From: Methanococcoides burtonii DSM 6242
Lineage (GTDB): Archaea > Halobacteriota > Methanosarcinia > Methanosarcinales > Methanosarcinaceae
Direction: 5' to 3'
Assembly (NCBI RefSeq): GCF_000013725.1
Contig: NC_007955.1
Span: forward strand, 1-64,000
DNA: 64,000 nt
The notes below the pieces were generated by a model, which was given only the letters and a program-made list of their open reading frames with translations, ran no database searches and had not been told where the DNA came from. The position numbers and the translations under genes were made by a program. Shown piece by piece: positions 16,371-19,089 of the stretch (positions are counted from its first letter, which is position 1; each line of letters begins with the position of its first letter).

Positions 16371-16399
16371 ACGCCAGTCAGCACGAATCTGGCATTTTT

Positions 16400-16482
16400 G
16401 CCGAGGTAGTCTAGTGGTAGGGCGCAAGCCTGGAAAGCTTGTGGGGCTTGACCCCTCGGGAGTTCGAATCTCCCCCTCGGCG
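16400..16482 (+). tRNA. tRNA-Ser (anticodon GGA)
   Basis: An 83-base gene. The acceptor stem GCCGAGG pairs with CCTCGGC (discriminator G, no encoded CCA). The anticodon arm is CAAGC-CTGGAAA-GCTTG with anticodon GGA, a long variable arm typical of serine tRNA follows (GGGGCTTGACCCCT), and the T arm reads GGGAG-TTCGAAT-CTCCC. It lies 29 bases after cbf5. Confidence 0.97.
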
Positions 16483-16544
16483 TATAATTCTTTTTTAGTG
16501 CTTTTGTTGATGTCGTTGATCTATTTATTTTGATTGTACTCCAT

Positions 16545-16762: not shown

Positions 16763-17281
16763 ATGAATATGAGCAATAGAGATGTTAATAAAATAATTCA
16801 AATTCATGATTTTATAATCGAATTAGATAAAGCTATAAATCCAGATGATTATTTACCTGGTATTCATGATATTGGAGTTCTTGAAGGGCTATTTGAGTGG
16901 CGGGTTAGCAACGATAACAGTCCAATCCGAAATGCAGCTCTAATTCTTGATTCAATCACTAGAAGACATGCATTTAATAATGGAAACAAAAGGACAGGAT
17001 TTGCAGTGGCATCCATTCTTCTTGAGTCAAAAGGTTACAGAATTACTGCAAATAGCAAAGAACGACTTGACTTTTTAGTAAGTATTGCTAAGTATCAAAT
17101 GGAAGTTGAAGACACTGAATTGTGGCTAACTGCTAACTCACACCACATTGGAAAGCTTAGATTTAAAATAGATTTGCTATTCAGAAAAACAAGATTTGGT
17201 TTGTACTTACAAGTTTGGAATCTTTTTAAAATATGCTGCCCAAAACCTAATGACAATGGGGGCAATATTAACAAAAAATAA
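16763..17281 (+). CDS. Doc-like Fic-fold protein (death-on-curing family)
   Basis: A 172-residue protein with the Fic/Doc active-site loop HAFNNGNKRTG (residues 69-79), the Doc variant of HxFx(D/N)GNKR. Doc toxins phosphorylate EF-Tu. A TATA box, tataaata (16708-16715), predicts a start near 16738 and a short leader; either ATG 16763 or ATG 16769 can serve. The C-terminus is longer and more basic than P1 Doc. No Phd-type antitoxin lies upstream, so it may be a solitary Fic enzyme or pair with the small convergent ORF downstream. High A+T and isolation suggest acquisition. Confidence 0.8.
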   Translation: MNMSNRDVNKIIQIHDFIIELDKAINPDDYLPGIHDIGVLEGLFEWRVSNDNSPIRNAALILDSITRRHAFNNGNKRTGFAVASILLESKGYRITANSKERLDFLVSIAKYQMEVEDTELWLTANSHHIGKLRFKIDLLFRKTRFGLYLQVWNLFKICCPKPNDNGGNINKK

Positions 17282-17871: not shown

Positions 17872-17907
17872 ATGTCCGGAATGTCCAATATTAACATGAT
17901 TCATATG

Positions 17908-19089
17908 ATGGGGGAAATCTTAAGATCAATAGTAGTAGTTACAACAGTATTGCTATTTTTAACAACTGTTGTGGGGGCGGTAGACTTTGAAGAATGTGGC
18001 GACTGCCATGGGGAAACTTATGCGGTCTGGAGCTCATCACCTCACGGGTCTGCATCCTGTGAGATATGTCATACAGCATCACCGGGCGGGTTTGATGCTC
18101 ATATATCTGCGCCGTTCACGTCTGCGCCTAACGTCAGCCTTTCTTCTGAAGTTTGCGGGGACTGCCATTCAGGTGTTTATGATGAATGGAACGAATTCGG
18201 TGAAGCTGACTTCGATATGGAGGCTATTGCAAGCCATTCAGAACCAACAGAAGTTGCTGAGCCTTATGTTCTGAATAGTGGGGCATCATGTGTTGCATGC
18301 AAGAGCACTGATGGGGGTATATTGAACATTGCAGACGCTGAACCTTATGCTCTGGATGAAGGAGGTATTCATGATCTTGAAGTTGTGGAAGAATGGGCAA
18401 TCTCATGTGCTGCATGTCATGATCCTCACGATACTGGTCCTCGAATAGATGATTCGGTCCTTCTGTGTGGGAACTGCCATAACACCGAAGGTGTGGTCAT
18501 GGATGGCAACACTCCGGTAGTAAGACATGCGCAGTGGGAATTGGTAAGCACTTCTGGATATGTGGATGGGTCTCATCCTACATCCATTGGTTGTGTCGAT
18601 TGTCACATGGTGCAGATCTCTAATGATGAAGTTGTTGAAACCGGGCACACATTCGACTTTGATGCGGAACGATTGTCGAATCCTGATTCCGGGAACAACT
18701 GCAGTCTCTGTCATCAGTCGTCATTAGCCTCATTGATAGAGGATAAACAGGCTCCTATTGAATCGCATATCTCTGCTCTGAACTCATTAAAAGAAAAAGC
18801 AGGCAATGCACTTGAGAGCATTAACGGCACTGACTCATATGAGGCACAAAGGGCAAACTACAACAACGGTCAATTTTATCTGACAAAAATAGAGAATGAT
18901 GGAAGTCTTGGGATACACAACCTTGAGACCGTTACAAATGATCTCGTGGCCTCAGAAGAACTGTTCAACAAGGTCATAATTGCAGGCGATGGTTCCGATG
19001 AAGCTGAAAAACCGGTTCCTGGGTTCAGTGCTTTCATCTCAATAGCACTTCTTGCTGCAGTGGCTTTTATTGTAAGGAAAGGGCGCTAA
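17908..19089 (+). CDS. Octaheme c-type cytochrome with CxxCK site and PGF-CTERM anchor
   Basis: A secreted, membrane-anchored multiheme cytochrome. After a signal peptide (hydrophobic VVVTTVLLFLTTVVG) come eight heme motifs in order: CGDCH, CEICH, CGDCH, CVACK (18289-18303), CAACH, CGNCH, CVDCH, CSLCH. One CxxCK among CxxCH motifs marks the catalytic heme of NrfA; having it fourth of eight matches octaheme nitrite reductase. The CAACHDPHD and GCVDCHM stretches resemble NrfA, but the protein is short and the usual active-site tyrosine after CGNCH is absent. The C-terminus PVPGFSAFISIALLAAVAF plus RKGR is a PGF-CTERM signal for archaeosortase. A TATA-like sequence at 17866 makes ATG 17908 or 17911 the likely start; the frame opens at 17872. 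Confidence 0.85.
   Translation: MGEILRSIVVVTTVLLFLTTVVGAVDFEECGDCHGETYAVWSSSPHGSASCEICHTASPGGFDAHISAPFTSAPNVSLSSEVCGDCHSGVYDEWNEFGEADFDMEAIASHSEPTEVAEPYVLNSGASCVACKSTDGGILNIADAEPYALDEGGIHDLEVVEEWAISCAACHDPHDTGPRIDDSVLLCGNCHNTEGVVMDGNTPVVRHAQWELVSTSGYVDGSHPTSIGCVDCHMVQISNDEVVETGHTFDFDAERLSNPDSGNNCSLCHQSSLASLIEDKQAPIESHISALNSLKEKAGNALESINGTDSYEAQRANYNNGQFYLTKIENDGSLGIHNLETVTNDLVASEELFNKVIIAGDGSDEAEKPVPGFSAFISIALLAAVAFIVRKGR

Follow-up and report, generated by a model that had tools for sequence, protein, structure and literature searches.

A probably anchored octaheme cytochrome with a fourth-place CxxCK motif in Methanococcoides burtonii: a candidate OcwA-like electron outlet

The window analyzed here, the first 64,000 nucleotides of contig NC_007955.1 of Methanococcoides burtonii DSM 6242, encodes a cytochrome whose heme motifs follow the order of octaheme nitrite reductases (ONR). 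This raises the question of whether such a protein, in a salt-water methanogen, is a reductase or a conduit for electrons leaving the cell. We give about an even chance to an outlet for electrons that resembles OcwA, is held at the membrane, and may have a side activity on small nitrogen oxides. The cytochrome is new in its details and not in its kind. None of the PMC papers considered here names the protein; Kletzin 2015 describes archaeal clusters modeling on ONR 3f29, and a prior listing in the tables of that study is possible.

The gene, its start site, and its surroundings

The ORF finder placed the start at 17872, which gives a 405-aa ORF. In the closest relatives, a stop codon lies upstream of the Met12/13 equivalent, and more distant relatives align from MLGEI; we therefore retain the start at 17908, as in the preliminary description of this locus. 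The features of the resulting protein are listed in Table 1. Reading the ORF also reproduced the motif count given earlier, with seven CxxCH and one CxxCK, the latter in fourth place, and at 393 residues the protein is indeed shorter, by about 130, than ONR with its roughly 520. The C-terminal bundle was modeled with high confidence as helices 241-281, 288-306, and 316-338 in mature-chain numbering, and the NrfA-type Pfam match spans residues 217-354 of the 405-aa ORF.

Table 1. Features of the octaheme cytochrome gene, with coordinates in the window
Feature	Coordinates	Strand	Basis
Octaheme cytochrome gene, 393 aa	17908..19089	+	Open reading frame; conservation around the start; homologs from six genus-level groups
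Sec-type signal peptide, MGEILRSIVVVTTVLLFLTTVVGA	17908..17979	+	Sequence reading; Ala24 invariant in 22 orthologs; cleavage site inferred
Heme motif 1, CGDCH (OcwA heme 1)	17995..18009	+	Motif and alignment
Heme motif 2, CEICH (OcwA heme 3)	18058..18072	+	Motif; OcwA heme-2 motif absent in M. burtonii protein
Heme motif 3, CGDCH (OcwA heme 4)	18154..18168	+	Motif and alignment
Heme motif 4, CVACK, Lys132	18289..18303	+	Aligns with OcwA heme 5 and ONR CxxCK; NrfA heme 1 equivalent (PMC6703420)
Heme motif 5, CAACH, then DPH (His174)	18406..18420	+	Motif
Heme motif 6, CGNCH, without Tyr downstream	18466..18480	+	Motif
His207	18526..18528	+	Alignment to the distal HH motif of OcwA and to His264 of NrfA; relatives have His or Tyr
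Heme motif 7, CVDCH	18592..18606	+	Motif
Heme motif 8, CSLCH	18700..18714	+	Motif
NrfA-superfamily three-helix bundle at the C terminus, starting at last heme motif	18697..18990	+	Model helices and NrfA-type Pfam match
PGF-like motif, transmembrane stretch, RKGR tail (probable anchor)	19018..19086	+	Sequence; weak PGF-CTERM match, ArtA in genome

Both the signal peptide and the C-terminal transmembrane stretch with its basic tail are clear, which supports the proposed position outside the membrane and makes anchoring likely. The archaeosortase signal also proposed for this tail is weak in M. burtonii. Its PGF-TM-RKGR tail scores 9.7 with the Pfam model (curated cut-off, 18.8) and 14 with the NCBIfam model (curated cut-off, 24.5), and the one sister Methanococcoides tail tested gave no PGF match; however, ortholog tails from other genera, scoring 40.3 and 27.8, exceed the Pfam PGF-CTERM cut-off, and the genome encodes archaeosortase A (ArtA).

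Gene order around the cytochrome is conserved within Methanococcoides only, with the truB side upstream and DJ-1-like and aminopeptidase genes downstream, and a functional neighborhood was rejected on this ground. In two genomes of putative Methanolobus-like identity, the octaheme gene faces VhtG/VhtA-like hydrogenase genes in convergent orientation, and in two of putative Methanohalophilus-like identity it faces FrdB/FrdA/FumC-like genes in the same way (gene names read from sequences). In L115 and L116, the VhtG/VhtA-like genes adjoin the octaheme gene, and no adjacent cytochrome b gene was seen. No NrfH or cytochrome b partner was found in the regions examined, and the cytochrome gene behaves as a stand-alone gene. 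A Fic/DOC-like gene (HAFNNGNKRTG; window positions 16763-17281) lies between tRNA-Ser (16399-16483) and the cytochrome and was not found in two sister Methanococcoides regions examined.

The cytochrome had been set apart from MmcA, and this distinction holds: MmcA has a gene of its own, located in the rnf operon of this genome (TIGR04314, 884.7 bits), and neither TIGR04314 nor TIGR04315 is among the matches listed for the octaheme protein. The heptaheme MmcA is likewise a pseudoperiplasmic multiheme cytochrome of methanogens but belongs to a different family. A second octaheme cytochrome in the genome is HAO/hydrazine dehydrogenase-like (97 bits) and has a PGF tail (L095:4621-6015; G000:C1 about 459620-461014). 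The multiheme cytochromes of the genome are at least those named here; the genome-wide CxxCH pattern is inflated by matches that are not heme sites. The otr locus of Methanosarcinaceae (PMC11024163) is a different gene.

Fold and residues at the lysine heme

A profile search against PDB sequences with family alignment A2 ranked OcwA (E value, 7e-42) and OmhA (7e-36) ahead of ONR (about 1e-16) and NrfA (1.7e-16), so that sequence favors OcwA/OmhA over ONR. An hhalign comparison of alignment A1 with E. coli NrfA was out of register and was not used. We modeled the mature chain with a deeper alignment (pLDDT, 74.8; pTM, 0.72), having dropped a first AF2 model as too weak (pLDDT, 60). Structure prediction and alignment to ONR, as suggested earlier, found a full-length ONR fold with a VIA Z of 18-19 over about 320 residues (19.2 over 319 residues for ONR 8rv0 and about 18.6 for TvNiR). 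The match to OcwA had a VIA Z of 18.2 (rmsd, 3.9; 279 residues; 26% identity), and HAO (12.9) and MccA (10.7) were more distant. ONR and OcwA are thus tied by Z, and the fold, as modeled, cannot choose between them.

OcwA, the nonaheme surface reductase of Thermincola potens (PDB 6i5b), is the best sequence match. The two proteins have in common collinear hemes, the three-helix bundle, and a cell-surface site (predicted for M. burtonii), and OcwA has its open heme 5 at the position of the CxxCK. OcwA differs in having nine hemes, CxxCH at heme 5, and a second open heme (heme 2), whereas the M. burtonii protein has CVACK and no heme 2; the distal pair is HH in OcwA and RH in M. burtonii. OcwA exchanges electrons with electrodes and, without a CxxCK, reduces nitrite slowly (kcat, 1/min) (PMC6703420). 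OmhA, the undecaheme surface cytochrome of Carboxydothermus (6qvm), shares the superfamily and the surface location (PMC7829351) but has eleven hemes. With NrfA the protein shares the CxxCK followed by four CxxCH and the C-terminal helices, and with ONR/TvNiR (3f29, 2ot4, 8rv0) the full-length fold and the order of motifs.

In the alignments, CVACK stands opposite CLKCH (heme 5) of OcwA and opposite the CxxCK of ONR, in agreement with the ONR-like order noted previously. The lysine heme accordingly corresponds to the catalytic hemes of both ONR and NrfA, and to OcwA heme 5. The crystal structure of OcwA shows heme 5 to be five-coordinate, its iron not ligated by the distal His pair (PMC6703420). 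Free His46, 65, 110, 174, 247, and 337 are invariant in the 29 Lys-type rows of our alignment, and His223 is present in 28 of them. The seven conserved free histidines equal in number the CxxCH hemes of the M. burtonii protein. As these hemes need all seven, no free histidine is left for the lysine heme, and an open distal face is likely and is the simplest reading. The same count disfavors a second axial ligand on the CVACK heme, which had been named as a case that would refute the preliminary reading.

The active-site residues of ONR are a different matter. Unlike ONR, the M. burtonii protein is probably anchored, and it lacks the active-site Tyr and Cys and a conserved Arg. The tyrosine reported missing near CGNCH is absent within 7 residues after the equivalent motif in every Lys-type row (0/29). 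The mature M. burtonii protein has no Cys outside the heme motifs and so lacks the Cys of the ONR Tyr-Cys link. No Arg occurs in the 22 residues before its CxxCK, and any Arg is found there in 12/29 rows. Among the NrfA second-sphere Arg, Tyr, and His, the His alone is present, and it is replaced by Tyr in 8/29 relatives. As ONR is defined by seven CXXCH and one CXXCK together with active-site residues (PMC5433712), the missing Tyr and Cys, the unconserved Arg, and the variable distal His place the protein outside ONR by the published definition. Efficient NrfA-type catalysis at the lysine heme is also unlikely. Closeness to nitrite reductase, as suggested in the preliminary description, was therefore not confirmed; by sequence, the nearest proteins of solved structure are two surface cytochromes, OcwA and OmhA. 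The protein passes the Pfam Cytochrom_C552 cut-off, and we caution against labeling such genes nitrite reductases although they do so.

Conservation, maturation, and candidate functions

Homologs were found in 33 of 112 Methanosarcinaceae genomes (5 of 14 genera), with one clear ortholog outside the family in the same phylum (G246; locus L096) and distant homologs in other families of the order. CxxCK is present in 29 of 35 aligned sequences, and these 29 come from six genus-level groups; of the other six, which are more distant, four show CxxCH at this position, one CxxCM, and one CxxCQ. Both cysteines and the lysine are invariant in the CxxCK-type rows. The lysine codon is AAG in 22 rows and AAA in 7, as expected from selection on the residue, and judging from this alignment, the CxxCK is not due to chance.

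Turning to maturation, each of the 26 genomes surveyed, with or without the cytochrome, has two PF01578 genes and no more; from their size and context we read them as CcmC and CcmF. With no second CcmF-type gene in these genomes, there is no NrfE-like (NrfEFG/NrfI) lyase for the CxxCK. Archaea are without CcmH and CcmI (PMC9084895), and in bacteria CxxCK needs NrfEFG or NrfI or, in the case of Shewanella, CcmF with the help of CcmI (PMC12285233). Either the archaeal CcmF takes CxxCK, or the site carries no heme. The latter, which would make the protein a heptaheme wire, draws on these gene counts and is improbable to us, as the motif is invariant despite synonymous codon changes and paralogs without the site have lost the motif too. 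The protein makes it possible to test how CxxCK is handled in archaeal Ccm, which has neither CcmH/CcmI nor a lyase of the NrfE type.

If the site does carry heme, the protein might be a dedicated reductase of a small molecule (NO, hydroxylamine, nitrite, or a sulfur oxyanion) that protects methanogenesis, with the wire merely feeding the lysine heme. Such a role would suit the conserved lysine with its two codons, the ONR heme order and full-length fold, and a distal His or Tyr in every row. We nonetheless regard it as unlikely, given the active-site residues that are missing or variable, including Tyr for the distal His in 8/29 rows, and a Methanolobus-like paralog group that retains the rest of the protein but no longer has any of the CxxCK segment. 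That the protein transfers electrons only, with a six-coordinate lysine heme (e.g., through His/Tyr207) and hence no active site, fits a column 207 with nothing but His or Tyr in all 29 Lys-type rows and the absent catalytic Tyr. The iron-free distal pair of OcwA and a count of free histidines that leaves none over make this as improbable as a CxxCK without heme. Doubtful, though somewhat less so than a dedicated protective reductase, is a composite: a methanogen-specific surface reductase with a five-coordinate lysine heme, a CxxCK hemylated by archaeal Ccm without CcmH/CcmI or lyase, an OcwA-like wire, and repeated gain or loss of heme 2 and heme 5.

We favor the electron outlet on the basis of the OcwA/OmhA matches, the ONR/OcwA fold, the alignment with OcwA heme 5, and the electrode exchange of OcwA, together with the seven conserved free histidines, the signal peptide and anchor, and a gene that stands alone, with neither NrfH nor cytochrome b as a partner in the regions examined. 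Against it, the protein has CxxCK where the surface reductase OcwA has CxxCH, and CxxCK is a motif known from dedicated reductases. Further, the neighborhood offers no functional partner, fold likeness is no proof of electron export, and none of the papers considered here demonstrates extracellular electron transfer by Methanococcoides. As an outlet, the protein would be a secreted, membrane-anchored multiheme cytochrome of the ONR/OcwA fold in which seven CxxCH hemes, probably bis-His, form a wire. Lys132 would hold the fourth heme, with its distal face near His207 probably open. Electrons could enter the wire from the methanophenazine pool or MmcA and leave it to external acceptors such as Fe(III), humics, or partner cells, and small ligands (NO, hydroxylamine, nitrite) could bind the lysine heme and be slowly reduced. 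Methylotrophic methanogens would then carry a heme of the NrfA type at their surface and have, beside MmcA, a second candidate electron outlet.

Heme 2 and more distant relatives

The OcwA heme-2 motif missing in the M. burtonii protein is present in many relatives. On the family tree, which cannot separate gain from loss, this motif has changed state at least three times; the letter at the CxxCK site has done so at least four times. The authors of the OcwA study proposed that octaheme enzymes arose from nonaheme ancestors by heme-2 loss and also postulated a form missing heme 5 (PMC6703420). Both forms are thus represented in one archaeal family, where the heme-2 route to octaheme enzymes can be tested.

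Several relatives deserve mention. In the ANME-like nonaheme relatives (L065-L069, L103), the motif at the CxxCK position ends in His, Met (CMKCM), or Gln (CLKCQ), and ANME-like giant multiheme proteins of 900-1500 aa (G154-G184, e.g., L099) contain a domain matching the family's C-terminal NrfA-like part. An in-frame TAG occurs at one aligned position between heme motifs 1 and 2 in L024, L025, L026, L028, L029, L030, and L070 (contexts KWDR*YANV, YIK*YGEM, and YSK*YGEV). The sequence flanking it is homologous on either side, and L071-L074 have Met at that position; from these contexts it looks like pyrrolysine. The L027 copy, with in-frame TGA and TAG, is a probable pseudogene. In L010, from Methanococcoides, there are nine motifs, and the extra CxxCH segment resembles a tandem copy of the heme-1 segment.
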